From Thermochromatium tepidum ATCC 43061 (GTDB taxonomy: Bacteria > Pseudomonadota > Gammaproteobacteria > Chromatiales > Chromatiaceae): DNA of 64,000 nucleotides. The stretch lies in the NCBI RefSeq assembly GCF_009664085.1, contig NZ_CP039268.1:1783501-1847500 (forward strand). Direction: 5' to 3'. The position numbers and the translations under genes were made by a program. Under the pieces are notes generated by a model. That model was not told where the DNA came from and did not search any database. It saw nothing but the letters and a program-made list of their open reading frames with translations. Shown piece after piece: positions 49,450 through 57,800 of the stretch (the first letter of the stretch is position 1; the number at the start of each line of letters is the position of its first letter).

Positions 49450-52287
49450 TTAGCCTCTCGTTCGCGCTTCCCCGCCTTGCAGGATCACGTCCCGAATCCC
49501 ACCGGGTTGCCGCACTACCGCCCAACGCCAGCGTCCGAATCCGCCATGCGCGTTGACGGCCTGGATCCATTCTTCCAGATACTGGCGCTTCACTTTGTCT
49601 TGTTCGGTGTCCTGCCCCTTCGTTTCGAGCACGAGCATGTCGCTGCTCTTCAGCCGAACGAGGAAATCGGGCCGATACTTCCGGACGACCCCGCGATAGA
49701 CGTAGAGCACCTCGAAGCCGAGATGGTCATTCTTGACCCAGGCGGCCACCGCGTCGCTGTTGTCGAGCACGAAGGCGTCCGACGCCTCCCAGGCGCTGTC
49801 GTAGACGCAGACGTTGATGTGCGACTTCCGCGTGCGCTCGCACGGCTTGCCGGTGTGCCAGGTGCACATGTCACCCGTTGATCGGATCGGGTGGTCGCGG
49901 TCGAAGACCGGGGTGAGCCGCTCGGTGTTCTCTTGCCGCACCGCCTCCCAGACGTGCTGGACGACCCGCGACATGTTGAGTGTGATGATCAGCCGGCGGC
50001 ACAGCTCGTCCTGGTAGAAAAGCGGCGGCGTGATGGTGATGCGGTCGGAGGCGATGAACTGCTCGACGATCCGCACCAATTGCGCCAGCAAGACCTCGCG
50101 GCTGCCCTGCCAGGTATGTTTCATCTGATCGAAGACGTCCCGCGCGGTCTCGAAGATAATGCGCTGGGTGCGGAACTCGCGCGCCAGCCGCTCCAGCTCG
50201 ATGCGGTTGATCCCGGCCATATTGGGCTTGCCTTCGAGGATGGGCGCCAATTCCGCTACCTGGGCGGTCTGGGCTGCGTCTAGTTCTAACGGCCGTGCCT
50301 TCGACCAATCCAGCGCCAGCGTGGGTTGAAACACGCGCTCGATGCGCACCACGTTCGGCCAGCGGATTTCAAACTCCGCCTTGGCGGGGTCCGGCTCGAC
50401 CGCGGTCTTGGGCGTGGGCGGCGGTGGCGGGCCGTCCTCGCCCCCCTCGTGCGGCAAGAAGGTGAAGGGCACGCCGAAGATGTTCACGTACTCCGGCTCG
50501 AACAGGCCCGTCGCCGGGTTCACCTCGTAGGACGTGCGCCGTAAGCCGCGCCCCACCACCTGTTCGCACAAGAGCTGGCTTGTGAAGGCACGCAGGCCCA
50601 TGATGTGGGTCACGGTCTTCGCGTCCCAGCCCTCGCTCAGCATGCCGACGGAGATGACCTTCTGAATCTTTTCGCCCGGCTGGCCCGCCTTGCCCACCGT
50701 GTCCACGGTCTGGCGCAGCCGCTCCGCCTGCTCGGCCTTGGTCAACTTGCGCTCGACCGGCGCGTCGTTCTCCCCTTCCTGCTCGTTCTCGTCGGCCACG
50801 TCCACCACCGGGGCGGCCGGCTCATCCTGCGCCTCCGCCTCGTCGAGCACCTTAGAGTCGATGTGCAGGATGCGCTCCGGGTCGCACAGCTCATCAATGT
50901 GAATCCGCCGTGAATCGAAAGCGTGCTTGACCCGTGCGGCGGTCTCGGTGCGGTTGCAGACGGTGATCATCACCGGCGGGGTGCGCAGTCCGGCTGCCTG
51001 CCACGCCTTCCACGCTTCGCGCCAGTCGTAGCCCAGCAGGTAGTAGGCATTCAACACCAGATCGGGCAGCGGTTCTTCGGGGGTGGCCTTGCGGTTCAGG
51101 TCGTCCTTCACGTCGGGGTCGTTGTAGATGTGATAAAGCCGCGACTTGTAGGTCCTGGCGTCCGGCACGGCGTCGTCGCGCACCACCACGCGCGGGGTCT
51201 TCACCAGGCCGGATTCGATGGCGTCGTTGAGGCCGAAATCGCTGACGATCCAGCCGAAGAGGGCCTCCTCGCTGCTCTTCTTGCCCGACGGCGTAAAGGG
51301 CGTGGCGGAGAAGTCATAACAGGTGAGAATGCCGCGCGAATGATGCAGCCGGTCCAACCCGCCGATCCACACCGTGGCTTCTTCGGCGCTGTCTTTCAGA
51401 TCACGCTGGCGCAAGTATTTGCCCTCCGCCTCCCAGTTGACGCGCCAGGCGTGGTGGGCCTCGTCGTTGAGCACCAGCAGGTTGCGGGCATTCGCCATCT
51501 CGCCCAGTACCTCGCGCGTGTAGGCTTCGTCGCTCTTTGCGCCGCGCTTGTCTACGCTCTTCCGCTTCTGGATCTGCGCCTCGCTCTCCCACGCCAGGGC
51601 GTGCCAGTTGCGTATCAGCACCTTGCCCTGCCGCAGCTTGTCGAGCAGGGCGGAAGGCACGATGTCGAACGCCTCATAGTAGTTGCCCGCGCCCGCCGGT
51701 TCCAGAACGGCCAGCCGTTTCTTGACCGTCAGCCCCGGCGCGACGACGAGCACGTTCTTCGAGAAACGCGCGTCCTGTGGGTTCGCCACCTTGTTGAGGA
51801 TGTGCCAGGCGATGACCATCGCCATGACGATGGTCTTGCCCGAACCGGTCGCCATCTTGCAGCACTGCCGCGCAAAGGCCCCGCCGTCGCCGGGAATCTC
51901 GATGCCCACCCGCTCGGCGGCGGGCGCTTCGGTCAGCCAGATGAGCGTCTCGACCGCTTCCAACTGACAGAAGAAGAAGCACCGCGCGTCGAACGCCTCC
52001 GGGTCGCGCCAGTGATCGAGCAGCCGCCTGGTGATGCTGGTCACGCCGGGATAGCCGGCCTCGCGCCAGGCTTTGACGCGCGGGCGGATCTGGTTGACCA
52101 GCGGAATCTCCACGAAGATGCCGGGGTCGTCGAAGGCCCGGGAATCGCCTGAGGCCACCACGTAGCCCGCTGGGCGACGGCCCTCCACCAGGTCGAAGGT
52201 GCGCGTCTCGCGATCGTAGCGCCAATGACGCTGCGGCTCCTCGTAGGGCGAATTGACAATCAGGCGGTCGATGGTGGTGCGGGGCAT
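49450..52287 (-). CDS. res: Type III-like restriction enzyme, Res subunit (helicase-nuclease)
   Basis: 945 residues from the ATG at 52287 (MPRTTIDRLIVNSPYEE); a TTG 8 codons earlier is possible, but the duplicate copy starts at this ATG. SF2 helicase motifs are KMATGSGKTIVMAM (Walker A), LVLNDEAHHAWR (DEAH-like), FSATPF and VVGRGLRRT (motif VI). The C-terminal nuclease has RPDFLVRLKSSDMLVLETKG (PD...ExK). It needs the Mod subunit to recognise and cut DNA. All neighbours to 57193 are on the same strand. It is last in the operon; a truncated second copy of its 5' end lies at 52800-53116. Confidence 0.92.
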   Translation of the reverse strand: MPRTTIDRLIVNSPYEEPQRHWRYDRETRTFDLVEGRRPAGYVVASGDSRAFDDPGIFVEIPLVNQIRPRVKAWREAGYPGVTSITRRLLDHWRDPEAFDARCFFFCQLEAVETLIWLTEAPAAERVGIEIPGDGGAFARQCCKMATGSGKTIVMAMVIAWHILNKVANPQDARFSKNVLVVAPGLTVKKRLAVLEPAGAGNYYEAFDIVPSALLDKLRQGKVLIRNWHALAWESEAQIQKRKSVDKRGAKSDEAYTREVLGEMANARNLLVLNDEAHHAWRVNWEAEGKYLRQRDLKDSAEEATVWIGGLDRLHHSRGILTCYDFSATPFTPSGKKSSEEALFGWIVSDFGLNDAIESGLVKTPRVVVRDDAVPDARTYKSRLYHIYNDPDVKDDLNRKATPEEPLPDLVLNAYYLLGYDWREAWKAWQAAGLRTPPVMITVCNRTETAARVKHAFDSRRIHIDELCDPERILHIDSKVLDEAEAQDEPAAPVVDVADENEQEGENDAPVERKLTKAEQAERLRQTVDTVGKAGQPGEKIQKVISVGMLSEGWDAKTVTHIMGLRAFTSQLLCEQVVGRGLRRTSYEVNPATGLFEPEYVNIFGVPFTFLPHEGGEDGPPPPPTPKTAVEPDPAKAEFEIRWPNVVRIERVFQPTLALDWSKARPLELDAAQTAQVAELAPILEGKPNMAGINRIELERLAREFRTQRIIFETARDVFDQMKHTWQGSREVLLAQLVRIVEQFIASDRITITPPLFYQDELCRRLIITLNMSRVVQHVWEAVRQENTERLTPVFDRDHPIRSTGDMCTWHTGKPCERTRKSHINVCVYDSAWEASDAFVLDNSDAVAAWVKNDHLGFEVLYVYRGVVRKYRPDFLVRLKSSDMLVLETKGQDTEQDKVKRQYLEEWIQAVNAHGGFGRWRWAVVRQPGGIRDVILQGGEARTRG

Positions 52288-52307
52288 TCCGATAGCCACT
52301 CTCGGTT

Positions 52308-52520
52308 TCAAGCGACTTCCGGGACGGACTCGAACAACAGTCGCCGAATATCGGCCTCCGGCGCGCGCTTTGACAAGTACAGCATCTCGATGCCGACGAC
52401 GCGGTCCTGATCGTCGTAATCCACGATGATGCCGGGCGAGACTTCCTCTGAACGGCTTGAAGGCGCTTCACTCAGCGTCAGGTAAAGCGCATCGGCCTGC
52501 CGGTCCACTTTTAACTTCAC
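52308..52520 (-). CDS. DUF2283 family protein, likely antitoxin partner
   Basis: 70 residues with the DUF2283 core KLKVDRQADALYLTLSE ... GIIVDYDDQDRVVGIEML. It overlaps the DUF4258 gene by ATGA (52517-52520) and is followed by res. Such pairs are commonly predicted toxin-antitoxin modules; no experimental role is claimed here. Confidence 0.85.
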   Translation of the reverse strand: MKLKVDRQADALYLTLSEAPSSRSEEVSPGIIVDYDDQDRVVGIEMLYLSKRAPEADIRRLLFESVPEVA

Positions 52521-52765
52521 GGGATGGTCCTCCTTCGATCAAAGAATGCCGTTACAACATGGAGTGGTCTCTTCCTGGTGTTAACAACAACCCGTAACAC
52601 ACGATGGCCAAATTCAGGGATGCGTGCGAGACGATGTTCCAGGTCCGCGTCCACCGGATCGGCCTCGGTCAGCTCTGGCGCGGTCAATGCCCGTTCCATC
52701 CAGGCGACAGGGATATGCCGCTTCTTCAGCGCGTCCTGTGCATGTTCTGTCAGGACGTAGTCCAT
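52517..52765 (-). CDS. DUF4258 family protein, likely toxin partner
   Basis: 82 residues; begins MDYVLTEHAQDALKKRHIP and has the RLARIPEFGHRVLRVVVN ... VVTAFFDRR pattern of the RelE/BrnT-like DUF4258 fold. It overlaps DUF2283 and lies directly behind the truncated res copy. Probably a small RNase-like toxin or its relative. Confidence 0.82.
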   Translation of the reverse strand: MDYVLTEHAQDALKKRHIPVAWMERALTAPELTEADPVDADLEHRLARIPEFGHRVLRVVVNTRKRPLHVVTAFFDRRRTIP

Positions 52766-52799
52766 GTCTCCGTCACTCCGGGAGCGCCAAAACCTTCTT

Positions 52800-53116
52800 C
52801 AAACCGGCAGAAGAAGCGCCGCGCATCGAACGCCTCCGGGTCGCGCCAGTGCTCCAGGAGCCGCCTGGTGATGCTGGTCAGGCTCAGATAACCCGCCTTG
52901 CGCCAGGCCTTGACGCGCGGGCGGATCCGGTTGACCAGCGGAATCTCCACGAAGATGCCGGGGTCGTCGGAGGCTCGAGAATCGCCTGAGGCCACCACGT
53001 AGCCCGCCGACCGGCGGCCCTCCACCAGCTCACGTCTCGCGGTCGTAGCGCCAGTGCTTCTTCGGCTCATCAAAGGGCGAATTGATGATGAGGCGGTCGA
53101 TGGTGGTGCGGGGCAT
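52800..53116 (-). pseudogene. Truncated, frameshifted copy of the res 5' end
   Basis: From the ATG at 53116 it reads MPRTTIDRLIINSPFDEP and KKHWRYDRET, then loses frame where the full gene has ETRTFDLVEG. It resumes as LVEGRRSAGYVVASGDSRAS through LLEHWRDPEAFDARRFFC. It diverges from the full gene at about 52800. The sequence is similar but not identical to the active copy, so it is an older or allelic version. Confidence 0.9.
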
Positions 53117-53454
53117 TACTCCTCCAGGGGAACCAGTGCTTCGAGCTTAGCGATCAGCGGCGGAAGCTCTTCCCACGCCACCTTCCACACAACGTCCAAA
53201 TCAATCTCAAAGTAGCCATGGACCAGCCGGTGTCGCATGCCGATCATCTCACGCCATGGCAGTTCTGGATGGGCGTCTCGAAACGCCTGCGAGACGCGCG
53301 AAGCCGCCTCGCCTATGATCTCAATGACCTTGAGCAAGGCCAACTGTTGCATGCGGTTGTGCTCAAATTCCTCTCGTGTGCAATTTCCTATAAATGCCAC
53401 GCCATCCCGAGCAGCCAGCAACATGTCCAGGAGCAGGATGTCGTCAGGCCGCAT
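53116..53454 (-). CDS. hepT: HEPT-domain toxin (HepT-like, DUF86)
   Basis: 112 residues. The HEPT signature R-x4-H with Tyr is RHRLVHGYFEID (about 74-85), after the helical start DILLLDMLLAARDGVAFI and ALLKVIEIIGEAASRVS. HepT toxins act as RNases or are held in check by AMPylation. The start overlaps the mntA end by 11 bases, and the stop overlaps the ATG of the res remnant. Confidence 0.92.
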   Translation of the reverse strand: MRPDDILLLDMLLAARDGVAFIGNCTREEFEHNRMQQLALLKVIEIIGEAASRVSQAFRDAHPELPWREMIGMRHRLVHGYFEIDLDVVWKVAWEELPPLIAKLEALVPLEE

Positions 53455-53755
53455 ACACCACCTCCGCAGCGTCGAGGATGGCCTTGCGGCGCAAGTAATT
53501 TCGGCTGGTTTGAATGGACCTTTTGGTCACTAAATCGACTTCACGGCCAAACAGGACACGCAGCTCGTCCTCCATGCGGACGAGATCAAAAAGCGTGCGC
53601 CCAGCCTCTGGCGCGAAGTCAACTAATACATCGACATCGCTGTCTGGTCCGAAGTCCTCGCGCAGCACGGATCCAAAGAGCGCAAATTCAACGATGCACC
53701 ACTTCCTGCAAAACTCGCCGATGGCTTCATAAGGGATGGTGATGCGCGCGGTCAT
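53444..53755 (-). CDS. mntA: MNT-domain nucleotidyltransferase antitoxin (MntA-like)
   Basis: 103 residues. The minimal nucleotidyltransferase signature is ALFGSVLREDFGPDSDVDVL (GSxxR...DSDxD). MntA-type antitoxins AMPylate the paired HepT at the tyrosine of its active motif. The ATG overlaps the mod stop by ATGA, so the pair is translationally tied to the methyltransferase. Confidence 0.92.
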   Translation of the reverse strand: MTARITIPYEAIGEFCRKWCIVEFALFGSVLREDFGPDSDVDVLVDFAPEAGRTLFDLVRMEDELRVLFGREVDLVTKRSIQTSRNYLRRKAILDAAEVVYAA

Positions 53756-55670
53756 GCTTCCACCTCCATGACCTTCAGGCTCTCGATGCCCCGGTCATCC
53801 ACGATCTTGACGGCAATGCGCTTGTGCTCGCCCGGTGCGAAGGGCAACGAGACCGTGCCCCGGTAAGCCTCTATCAGGTCCTCGTCGATCTCGGCCTTGA
53901 GGTTCTTTGCCAGCTTCGCCCAGCCGTCTTTTTCGCCTGCCATCGGAAAGAAGACCTGACGCGGGTAGAGGCTGCGGCCGTCGTAGTCGGTGTCGAGCAG
54001 CCAGACGGCGATCTTGTCTGCGCCGCCCGATTCGATGGCGCCGGTCTTGGTGTTGTAGTAATCAAAGCCATGCACTTCGACCACGAACCGGCCATCTTCG
54101 GCTTGGCGCAGCTCCACATCCGGCTGCCCGATGAGCCAGAAGGATTCGTTGCTGGCGCGCTTCTTTTTGAGGTCGTCGGTTAGGAGATCGGCGTTCATTT
54201 GAACCTTGAGGAACTGCATGCCGGCCAGCTCAGGCTTCATCTCGTCAATGTCCTTGGCCGCTTCGGGGTCGAACTGGAAGGCGGCAAAGATCAGCAGTTT
54301 TGGCCGCGGGACGAGCATCCGCGCCTCTTGCCAGGCATGCTCGACCTGCCGCTGCTCCAGGGGCCCATGTTCCGGGCCGAAGGAGACGACGACGCGGTTA
54401 GTGGCTAGTGGATAGTGGTCAGTGGATCGTTTTTTGGCGTCCAGCTTTCTTTCGCTATCCACTATTCCCTGTGCACTATCCACTACTTCGCCGTCGGCGT
54501 GCAGGTAGCGACAGCCGGGCAGCGGTTCCAGCCGGGCGAAGCGGATGGATTGCCCGTTTTTGCCACGGATGCCGGTACGCAATAGCTCGTCGCGCCATTC
54601 GGTCTGGCGCAGCGTCTCACCAGAGCGGGCAATCGAGGCATTTGCCGGTTCGGGCCTCGGCTCGAGAATTTCGTCCACCGACTTGACCACCGGCGCAGGC
54701 ACCGCCTCGACGGTAAATGGGCCGGTGACGCGCACTTTCTTGCGATCCACAAAGGGCTGGTCGTAGAGCGTCTCCTGGTCGGCATGGCGGGCGATGGCGG
54801 CGTCTATTTCCTCCTGGCGCTTGCGGGCGAGCGTCAAGGCCACGCGCGAGGTGTCGCAGGTGATCCAGCGCCGGCCCCACTGCTCGGCAACAAAGGCGGT
54901 GGTGCCGCTGCCGCAATTGTGCACAACGCACAGCTCCGTGATGAAGGAGTGCGCGTCTTCTACTTCCAGGTCATACAACTCCTCTTCGGTTTCTTGAGTG
55001 TGGAGTTCAGCGATGCGCGCTGCGACCCGTTGCGGACCAAAGAAGACCCAATCACCCACAGCCAGGTCCTGCGCTTCCACCCACTCGGCCCTCTCGACGC
55101 TGAGCTGAAGGTGGCAGGTGTGTCGAATGGTTTCGTAAACGCCCTCCAGATTGGACAGGACCTCCCTGGCCGGGATTCGCAGCACCTCCAGGCCCAGCCC
55201 GCGGAGATAGGCATCGCGGGCCTGATCGTGAGCCAGCGCCTCTTCGCTGCTGTGGGCCGGCGCGCCGTCCACCTCGACGACAAGTTGGGCGTCGCGGCTG
55301 TAAAAGTCCGCTATGTACTGACCGATGGGATGCTGGCGTCGGAAGGTGAAACCGGTTTGGTCGTTGCGCAGGGCCGTCCACAGCTTACGCTCCGGCGGGG
55401 TCATTTCACGCCGCAGCGTCCTGCTTCGCCCGCGCACCCCCTGGGGAATGCCCGACCAGTCGTTGTGCCCTCCCAGTGAGCGCGGGCGGCGTTTGGCGAG
55501 CACCTTGTGGTCAGCAGAGAGCCAGAGCGTTGAGTCGGTTTTTTCGTGGCGGATGCCGATCATCGTGCCGCGGTATGGCCGGCGGATCACGCGCACGACG
55601 CGATGCGATTGCCCGTCATGCCCCAGAACCCAGTCGCCGGGTTGGATGGATTCGATGGGGAGCAGGGTAG

Positions 55671-55705
55671 CCCCTCCCCAGCCCTCCCCGTAAACGGGGA
55701 GGGGG
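55671..55705. repeat. REP-like palindrome in the intein insert
   Basis: CCCCTCCCC followed by the palindrome CTCCCCGTAAACGGGGAG. Motifs of this kind are common dispersed repeats in proteobacteria. It directly abuts the first CRISPR-like repeat and together with it makes up the foreign insert. Confidence 0.65.
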
Positions 55706-55792
55706 CGTCCCCCCGCGTGCGGGGGGACCATCCGGGCAGGGGCTCCACTCCGGGCAGGGGCATGGGCGTCCCCCCGCGTGCGGGGGGACCAT
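55703..55792. CRISPR. Mini-array: two identical 29-bp type I-E-like repeats and one 32-bp spacer
   Basis: The 29-bp repeats at 55703-55731 and 55764-55792 are identical. They read on the minus strand ATGGTCCCCCCGCACGCG and onward to GACGCCC, with the stem CCCCCCGC/GCGGGGGG. The period is 61 bp, the type I-E value. Alignment to the classic 29-bp I-E repeat layout (stem at the same place) is good. The spacer (55732-55763) is GC-rich with an internal CCCCTGCCCGG duplication. No cas genes are in the window and the array lies inside a coding region, so it may be a relic or a look-alike. Confidence 0.7.
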
Positions 55793-57286
55793 AGGGGGGC
55801 AGCCTCCCCCGTCCTCCACACACCACACCCGCGTCCCTTTCCGCACACACGTCGGGTCGAAGACCAGGTCGCCCGGGTCGGTGGTCATCAGGAGGCAGCG
55901 CTGGATGACAAGCGTATTTGTCTGAACCACATAAATTTTGCTCTCGCCCTTGAGAAATCCACCCGCCGCAGTATCATCCCAGGAATTCGGGATTGCGCGT
56001 ACTAGGTAGTCGACCAGAAAACGTCGATAAAAAACGTTCTGACCCTTGATCTGCAATCGGCCAGCTGCGGCAAGGTTTTTCATGCCGCTTTCGGTTGTTG
56101 ACCAGTGGCGGCCTGCATTTGGCGCAAAAGTCTGTCCGCCGTATTCAAACTGGAAAGCGCCGCTTTCCGTGTAGCCTTGTGAGGTAAGGTCAGCGAGAGC
56201 GTACTTCTTGCCCTGTAGCTTCTCTTCCGGCGTCCAACGCTCCACCTCAGTCAACTGGCGGCACGCACCCTCGGACTCAATCCAGTCGTAGTTACTCTCT
56301 GTTTCAAGGGGCCGATGCACGAATAATTGCCGGTACTTCGCTCGCGACTTATCTTTTGCATACCAGAGAGCATAGTCGGAGATGTTGTCCAGCAGCCCCC
56401 CCGCTCGTGCCGCCGTGGTGCGAAACGCGATTTGACTCACAAAATTCCCCGCCCCAAACACCTCATCCATCAACTCCCGCACGTGGTGCACATTCTCATC
56501 GCTGATCTGCACAAAACACGAGCCACTCTCCGCTAACAACTCTCTAGCCAAAAGCAGCCGGTCGCGGAGATACGTGAGATACGAATGGATGCCCAGCTCC
56601 CAGGTGTCGCGAAAGGCGCGGATCTGCTCCGGCTCGCTGGTCAAGTCCTCGTCCTTGCCGTCCTTGACGTCGCGCTTGTTCACAAAAGGCTGGAAGTTGG
56701 AGCCGTATTTGATGCCATAGGGCGGGTCGATGTAGATCATCTGCACCTTCCCCGCCAGGCCCTCTTTTTCCAGGAGCGAGTTCATCACCAGCAGGCTGTC
56801 CCCCGCCACCAGCCGGTTGCTCCAGCCGTGGGCGTGCTGGTAGAACTCGACGGCGTGACGCAGCGGCTCGGCACGCTCGGTGTCGAAGAGCGTCATCTGC
56901 TGAGGGCCGCCGCCGTTCTTCTTCCGCACGGCCTCGATGATGGTGCGCGGGTCAATGCGCTCGTGGACGTGCAGGGAGACCGTCGGCACCTCGAACGAGG
57001 TGTGCTCGGCCTTGCCGGCCCACACCAGTTGCGGGTCGAGGTGCGGGTCGTAGGCGTAGGTCTTCTTCTGCCCGGCGTCGGGGTCGGTCTGGGGCGTGAC
57101 CAGCCCCACGGGCGGGTTGTTGACGCGCTCTTTGTCCCGATGCTCGTAGGATTCGATCGGGCGCTTGGATTCGGTTTTCTTGTTTCGTGCCATCAAGTTC
57201 CGCCTATTGGTTTCGTCATGCGCCGGTTCGGGAGGCCACAGCCATTGCCTTCTCCTATTGGTGAGGGCGGTGAAGCGAGGTAGATG

Positions 57287-57352
57287 CCCAACGTCGAAGC
57301 TCAGGGGCGCGAGCCGCTTGCGGTGCGTCCCCCTGGAGCGCAATGTTAGACG
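57287..57352. repeat. attC-like site (integron cassette recombination site), 66 bp
   Basis: The outer boxes GCCCAAC (57287-57293) and GTTAGAC (57346-57352) fit RYYYAAC ... GTTRRRY. Between them GCTCAGGGG pairs with CCCCCTGGAGC, leaving an extra base as in extra-helical attC positions. A single site was found and no integrase is in the window. It lies about 95 bases before the mod start. Could be a chance palindrome. Confidence 0.55.
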
Positions 57353-57800
57353 ATGAGGCTCGCAAGAGCGCGAGCCTGCGAGCCCACGCCCGGAAGGCAA
57401 GGGAGAAACGGCGTTTGAAGAGCGCGACACGGCCCGCGCCCGCGAGGCGGGAAGACGGCGGCAGCTCGGAGCGCGGCGGGGCTGTCAGTGCAGGAACCAC
57501 GGAGCCCGAAGACAGCGGCCAGACCCGAGCCCAAAAGTCGGCGCTGGCGAGACGCGATTCGGGGAGATGGGATTGATTAAGTGTTTCCCGAGACCCTCTC
57601 GTGCAGTATGGACGTGCCGGGCGGCGCTCAAACTCAGCGACGTGCCACGGGCGAGGGACACAGGATAGTTCCTTCGCGGCACATGCTCACACGGGACGCA
57701 ACATGTATCGCGCGAAGCAAGGCGGACGTAACCGCTGGTATTACGCTGGTCATCGAAATGGCGGCCAGGCTGAGGATCCAAGTGTGGCGGCGAGATAGCG
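57353..57800. other. Non-coding stretch between the restriction locus and holA
   Basis: No supported gene. It contains a hairpin GGCTCGCAAGAGCGCGAGCC near 57358, and a right-end copy of the MITE-like repeat (GATTGATTAAGTGTTTCCC, 57571-57590). It is the probable right border of the island. Confidence 0.5.

Follow-up and report, generated by a model that had tools for sequence, protein, structure and literature searches.

Here we describe an intein that interrupts the methyltransferase gene mod of a type III-like restriction-modification system in Thermochromatium tepidum ATCC 43061, within a stretch of 64,000 nucleotides (nt) of contig NZ_CP039268.1 (positions 1,783,501 to 1,847,500; hereafter the window). 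The intein is real (Table 1), and it is probably a decayed member of a horizontally moving class 1 intein family that sits in motif I of Mod, carries a DUF559 nuclease, and offers in the loop after block A a permissive site for REP-like palindromes; the Mod of this genome is most likely inactive. The window's own copy is labelled WIN below, and L-numbers (L029, L240 and so on) are the labels of the compared loci.

The first intein codon is a cysteine (55849-55847) directly after the DPT of the N-terminal extein (Mod-N), and the last is an asparagine (54918-54916), next to which stands the C+1 of CGSGTTA. WIN has all of Cys1, the HN end and Cys +1 (CVRKGT...VVHN/C), as in a class 1 intein. In two homologues that lack the intein, L029 (same genus) and L030 (same family), DPTCGSGTTA runs without a gap. 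A first-pass annotation made from the sequence had placed the intein exactly at the motif I junction of a type III-like Mod, with a Vsr-like DUF559 domain replacing LAGLIDADG, and all three points were borne out: the first by the DPT/CGSGTTA flanks and the two uninterrupted homologues, the second by the PADLOC MTase_III profile PDLC03632, which is matched by both Mod pieces (5.2e-104 on the Mod-N open reading frame (ORF) and 4.1e-50 on the Mod-C ORF, covering 76-507 and 646-982 of 983), and the third by a DUF559 match of 5.9e-28. The adjoining Res subunit matches NF046055 with 1175.6 bits. Regarding the splicing domain, the C-terminal part of WIN matches NCBIfam intein_Cterm TIGR01443 above its cut-off (4.3e-7) and Pfam Intein_splicing PF14890 below the curated cut-off (1.2e-4, C-part only), while the N-terminal Hint part on its own gives a weak match (PF05203, 0.099); the paired Hint and DUF559 matches that the annotation expected were found for DUF559 and the C-part and weakly for the N-part, and at the family level Hint_2 is matched by 20 of 25.

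No single ORF spans the intein in WIN. Two overlapping ORFs (55616-57430 and 53752-55848) share it, block A being in frame 0 with Mod-N and the intein from LLPIES onward being in frame +1 with the C-terminal extein (Mod-C); the 142 nt between VEDG (ends 55808) and LLPIES (starts 55665) are not divisible by 3. Mod-C of WIN is also without the VPH[IV]TL.SIA block, which is kept in 17 of 17 other Mod-C sequences compared (11 found by an automatic pattern, and L030, L064, L045, L042, L055 and L058, which have another first residue, by eye; L033 had no motif in this comparison). With the frame broken and this block missing, Mod is not an intact catalytic subunit, and splicing cannot be a working on/off control of it here, so that the annotation's proposal of splicing as a control of self-protection fails for this genome; the annotation had also overlooked the frame break, the palindrome-rich stretch, the spread of the family across phyla and the association of DUF559 with palindromes. 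We suggest that the loop left the gene out of frame and that, with the conserved block gone from Mod-C, Mod in this genome is probably dead, and we file WIN as a decayed copy. Res of type III systems depends on Mod for action, and loss of Mod need therefore not be lethal. Such host-gene decay is by no means exceptional, since six of the 25 relatives with an open intein have a Mod that is interrupted or shortened beyond the intein (L040, L042, L047, L061, L066 and L071; several further Mod genes among the 25 reach a locus edge). Several of these six are metagenome-assembled, and their interruptions could be errors. In relatives with open frames, splicing-dependent Mod activity is plausible.

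Table 1. Features of the intein, its palindromic loop and the host system in the window.
Feature	Position	Strand	Remarks
Intein, Cys1 to C-terminal Asn	54916..55849	-	934 nt, frame-broken
Intein block A, CVRKGTRVWCVEDG	55808..55849	-	frame 0, same frame as Mod-N
DUF559 (Vsr-like) domain	55114..55431	-	Pfam; bears residues invariant in alignment A1
C-terminal splicing part, blocks F and G, ending VVHN	54916..55017	-	Intein_splicing 122-155
Palindrome-rich stretch in loop after block A	55666..55807	-	142 nt; exact ends chosen by us
Palindrome GTCCCCCCGCGTGCGGGGGGAC, copy 1	55768..55789	.	perfect
Palindrome GTCCCCCCGCGTGCGGGGGGAC, copy 2	55707..55728	.	perfect; 61 nt from copy 1; same palindrome in L053 loop
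Palindrome CCCTCCCCGTAAACGGGGAGGG	55682..55703	.	perfect; kind dispersed in most host genomes
Mod N-terminal extein, up to DPT	55850..57193	-	N6_N4_Mtase match, MTase_III; start ATG 57193-57191 is our choice of likely start
Mod C-terminal extein, CGSGTTA onward	53752..54915	-	frame +1; without VPH[IV]TL.SIA block
Res subunit, BPTD_3080 family	49450..52311	-	nearly full length, 2-966 of 970

Alternatively, the break might be an artefact of sequencing or assembly in the GC-rich palindromic stretch, leaving a Mod that works with its intein. The stretch does contain runs of six C and six G, both ORFs are otherwise open, and the close relatives L040, L043, L053 and L057 have one-frame inteins. Against such an error speaks the additional absence from Mod-C of the block kept in all 17 homologues compared. 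L055 and L054 likewise have block A in one frame and what follows in another, although both are metagenome-assembled and subject to the same doubt. We regard an error as unlikely, though it carries some weight.

To place WIN in a wider context, a degenerate DNA pattern for HN/CGSGTTA was searched in 84,980 species genomes. The search yielded 33 loci, and 31 of them, from many phyla, are inteins at the same Mod position; the matches in L046 and L050 were dismissed as chance. Where the N-side junction was seen, it was mostly DPT/C, with DIT/C in L042, L044 and L063, DAT/C in L070, and DCF/C in L051 and L054. In 25 of 31 the intein frame stays open all the way from Cys1 to HN; in L048, L049, L059 and L067 the locus edge lies inside the intein so that its start is not covered, and in L054 and L055 the frame shifts within the loop that follows block A, with L054 shifting a second time behind DUF559. 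DUF559 was present in 24 of the 25 open-frame inteins, the remaining one (L060) being a mini-intein of 145 residues. Pfam searches at E <=0.1 gave matches to DUF559 in 25/25, to Intein_splicing PF14890 in 25/25 and to Hint_2 in 20/25. An alignment of 24 inteins and WIN (A1; residue numbering of L045) has invariant columns that include H68, E107, D135, E146, H152, H265 and N266; E107, D135, E146 and H152, for which WIN is included, are presumably catalytic. A profile of 25 inteins matched, in its C-terminal part, the solved inteins 2jmz (MjaKlbA) and 2in0 (Mtu RecA), and it also matched the DUF559-like structure 3hrl. A viral source was considered and rejected: of 13 viral matches to the junction pattern, 12 were genes with a CHNCG motif (taken as zinc-binding) and one (L079) was a chance frame of 18 residues. 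Although 52 plasmid and 3 phage records matched the intein query, none covered 80% of it, and among the matches listed (15 of 52 and 3 of 3) all lay on the DUF559 part or slightly beyond.

The distribution of this family shows that it moves horizontally. Phyla are intermixed in the intein tree, where WIN falls in a set of six rows (support 100/99) whose other members come from Armatimonadota, Nitrospirota and Myxococcota and, in two cases, from unnamed phyla, apart from the Thiotrichaceae intein L061. In Microcystis the intein is present in 3 of 12 genomes, and in the pair L240 and L242 the exteins are 69.8% and 79.7% identical over ~900 nt per side, whereas the intein cores are 94.0% identical with no indel over 750 nt. 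As the core is far more alike than the exteins, the intein has moved between diverged Mod alleles. Horizontal movement is thus seen at the family level only, in this pair and in the phylum-mixed tree. By analogy with known inteins, the open-frame members would splice out through C1, HN and C+1, and DUF559 would cut the intein-free mod junction to bring about homing. The nuclease may itself have been exchanged: in a tree of DUF559 (67 rows, few columns and many open forks), the intein DUF559 of L056 clusters with free DUF559 genes, away from the other 24, which suggests one exchange. This tree left out L119, L123, L126, L129, L154, L160, L162, L209, L214, L216 and L220 (no motif) and one short row.

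Palindromes are strongly concentrated in the loop after block A. Counting perfect palindromes (arms >=8, loop <=8) in 24 inteins (L040 left out because its loop end was not found, L054 also left out), we found that they cover 934 of 4683 nt of loop (19.9%) and are present in 21/24 inteins. Cover was 0.7% in the rest of the intein (4/24 with a palindrome), 0.6% in the N-side flank (6/24) and 1.3% in the C-side flank up to 1300 nt (10/24), the extein values being approximate as the flank windows may extend past the gene. First-order resampling gave an expectation of 1.3% for the loop and 0.3% for each of the other three regions. At arms >=7, 24 of 27 loops (25 in-frame, WIN and L055; L054 left out) contain palindromes, and 23 of these are of a C-run/G-run kind. 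For the 22-nt repeat pattern of WIN, 100 dinucleotide shuffles of the window gave no match at <=3 mismatches, and ~30 other places of perfect palindromes across the 64 kb differ in sequence from those of the loop. A comparison of the poribacterial L045 and L068, which are sisters with 72% identity, shows that the first has no palindrome in its loop and the second has one. L240 and L241 are 99.0% identical in their exteins, yet their loop lengths are 156 nt apart; compared in pairs, the three Microcystis loops differ by 156, 129 and 27 nt. Of 26 tandem arrays found in the inteins, 25 have periods that are multiples of 3. Some of these arrays overlap one another, and they include one from the C-part of L063 but not the 61-nt pair of WIN; L054 was left out.

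These patterns suggest that the loop acts as a permissive site in which REP-like GC palindromes, likely mobile units, land or take refuge and would be tolerated because the segment is absent from the mature protein. Within the loop they would expand and contract nearly always by multiples of three, and such lengths look like selection against frame changes. That DUF559 drives the palindromes is speculative. Several observations weigh against the reading of WIN as a decayed copy with a loop that receives palindromes. The loops of L045, L060 and L061 (3/27) are without palindromes, and L055 has one of different sequence. The regions flanking the intein have palindromes too (6/24 N-side and 10/24 C-side windows), visibly so in the Mod exteins of L029, L053, L064 and L070, so that they are not exclusive to the segment removed by splicing. 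In WIN the 22-nt repeats lie 61 nt apart, which is not a multiple of 3. The window comes from a single genome record without reads, in which a sequencing error might have produced the frame break, and many of the relatives are metagenome-assembled genomes.

The palindromes could instead have arisen where they stand, through slippage in a low-complexity linker, as the tandem arrays in many loops might indicate. Against this, 27 of 32 host genomes have palindromes of the CCCTCYCC kind scattered through them: CCCTCYCC-N4-9-GGRGAGGG has 2007 copies in the 32 genomes versus 18 for the reversed control (our sums), with up to 814 in one genome and 6 versus 0 in that of the window. Five hosts are without this kind, and three of them (L042, L056 and L068) have loop palindromes of another kind. 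Slippage also does not fit the paired loop palindromes with (nearly) reverse-complementary inner bases in L047, L051, L056, L062, L064 and L066, nor the fifteen readable starts of other inteins of the same host genomes (in 14/23 loci), none of which had a palindrome-type insert within 45 residues as judged by eye. We therefore hold growth by slippage to be improbable.

A phase-variation switch, in which the number of palindromic units toggles Mod, would account for loop lengths that differ between near-identical Microcystis alleles and for the location of the frame changes of WIN, L055 and L054, all in this loop. Type III mod genes can switch via repeats, as described for Mycoplasma MmyCI. Divisibility by 3, both of 25 of the 26 array periods and of the three Microcystis loop differences, runs counter to such toggling, as does the deletion in Mod-C of WIN, and we think a switch quite unlikely.

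An accidental split intein, in which Mod-N with its short N-intein would be spliced in trans to a C-part that has its own start, is very unlikely: the C-part has an in-frame ATG at 55731-55729 and the break falls just after block A, near the S1 position at which inteins have been split artificially, but nothing indicates co-translation or association of the pieces, Mod-C itself is damaged, and 25 relatives have the intein in one frame. Insertion of a one-spacer CRISPR unit into the intein is, judged on the repeats, likewise very unlikely. The 61-nt spacing of the 22-nt repeats would fit a 28-29 nt repeat plus a 32-33 nt spacer, and the sole other genomic site of the repeat (3 places in all at <=1 mismatch) is found where a CRISPR-like array ends. 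However, the loop of L053 contains a single copy of this palindrome with neither a partner nor a spacer, and the family-wide pattern is one of varied palindromes. The CRISPR-like array (L010:960-1623, genome ~2741640-2742303) consists of eight good ~36-nt repeats and one degenerate repeat, before which two copies of the GTCCCCCC palindrome of the intein, one a base shorter, lie 61 nt apart.

DUF559 is also associated with palindromes outside inteins. It was found in 31 of 32 genomes, often in more than one copy. From 110 genomes of the window's phylum (35 with a match) we took 40 high-scoring free DUF559 genes, which are not a random draw (40 of 41, the truncated L208 left out), and compared them with 26 of 30 ParE genes (L173, L175, L179 and L198 left out). 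Within 160 bp, palindromes lay upstream of 29/40 DUF559 genes, downstream of 30/40, on both sides of 21/40 and on either side of 38/40 (the two without are L203 and L214), versus 0/26, 1/26, 0/26 and 1/26 for ParE. The Fisher p values for upstream, downstream and both sides (5.7e-10, 4.4e-9 and 1.7e-6) are inflated by related genes. At 600-775 bp the counts were 0/40 upstream and 1/40 downstream for DUF559, and 2/26 and 0/26 for ParE. Extending the distance to 300 bp gave palindromes on both and on either side for 25 and 38 of 40 DUF559 genes, 0 and 3 of 26 ParE genes, and 0 and 2 of 17 Vsr genes. Free DUF559 genes of intein hosts had them on both sides in 8/10 and on either side in 10/10 (10 of 11, L129 dropped; the short loci L117, L122 and L135 not included). 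The paired palindromes of one gene had a similarity of 0.92 versus 0.77 between genes, the former being the best of several pairs and hence biased upward, and the best-matching pair was inverted in 19 of 27. Weak, distant DUF559 matches had no two-sided bracket (0/23 in Actinomycetota and 0/7 from the search of the window's phylum), with a palindrome on either side within 300 bp in 9/23 and 1/7, respectively. Among three strong Actinomycetota matches, one was truncated and the other two had a palindrome on at least one side.

Such units also occur within Mod. In L029 and L053, Mod-C has an in-frame DUF559 bracketed by palindromes, in a stretch of 633-684 nt versus 96-102 nt in WIN, L030, L065 and L063. 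The Mod open frame is at least 1445 residues long in L053 (L053:2-4336; 1485 in another count) and 1350 residues in L029 (L029:2066-6115), and L053, with its motif I intein and its C-terminal linker DUF559, has two DUF559 domains in one gene. L115 (~1501-1827) and L125 (~1501-1815) likewise contain an in-frame DUF559 with palindromes on both sides, in open frames of 1208 residues; that of L115 is methyltransferase-like by eye.

The tie between DUF559 and palindromes is a strong association and not proof of mobilisation. Terminator hairpins may be one source of palindromes beside DUF559 genes, against which the upstream palindrome copies and the control genes speak. As a tentative proposal, which we consider possible but do not favour outright, DUF559 might be the engine of a tiny mobile element consisting of the gene bracketed by paired GC palindromes, with the palindromes spreading alone as REP-like repeats and the intein being at once a vehicle of the nuclease and a landing site of the palindromes. 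The bracket around free DUF559 genes would thereby offer a candidate enzyme for common dispersed GC palindromes, which is testable.

Compared with known systems, the family shares with class 1 homing inteins (Mtu RecA, MjaKlbA) C1, block B, block F, HN and C+1 as well as the placement of the nuclease in the middle of the Hint domain, together with the profile match to solved inteins. It differs in having DUF559 instead of the LAGLIDADG nuclease carried by most described inteins, and in a second insertion loop after block A that is filled with palindromes, the window's copy being frame-broken in addition. The novelty lies in this palindrome loop in an otherwise known kind of intein, of which the copy in this genome is most likely dead. 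EDxHD/Vsr-like homing enzymes include I-Bth0305I and Vsr-like inteins of fractured genes, and the present family would by analogy use the same Vsr/PD-(D/E)xK type of nuclease for homing. DUF559 and inteins are treated together in PMC9403480, where the EDxHD homing family is said to include a DUF559 gene. According to PMC3943268, most EDxHD enzymes derive from phages, and nested nucleases are described in PMC6801210 as inserted at another site than this loop. Caulobacter VsrA is also a DUF559 protein, but is free-standing and linked to cytosine methylation, its presence being tied to DNA damage in vivo (PMC12907096).

Regarding the palindromes, REPIN/RAYT systems consist of dispersed palindromes in inverted pairs near a Y1 tyrosine transposase gene. 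Dispersed inverted-pair palindromes near the gene of a DNA-cutting enzyme are found here too, with the difference that the associated gene is DUF559 and not a Y1 tyrosine transposase (no search aimed at RAYT was made). Rickettsia palindromic elements are described in PMC10969869 as palindromic units in frame within protein genes; the in-frame insertion is the same, although here it is concentrated in one intein loop across phyla. The literature searched, which has most subscription papers outside it and is no proof of absence, contained no published tie of this intein to Mod and no published link of DUF559 to palindromes. The arrangement amounts to nested selfish DNA, with REP-like palindromes in an intein in a restriction-modification gene, in which protein splicing would conceal the palindrome insert from the host protein, and it provides a test case for why one intein loop becomes a palindrome hot spot.

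Further features were observed in the neighbourhood of mod. Between Mod and Res lie a HepT-like and nucleotidyltransferase pair (53116-53755, minus strand), a truncated duplicate piece of res (52750-53073, minus strand) that is 84% identical over 79 residues to the N-terminal part of the intact Res (49450-52311), and a DUF4258 ORF that is weakly BrnT-like (52517-52765, minus strand). Two other inteins were seen in the same genome, at 1719832-1723053 (ORF of 1399 residues) and 2177838-2179361 (ORF of 1412 residues).

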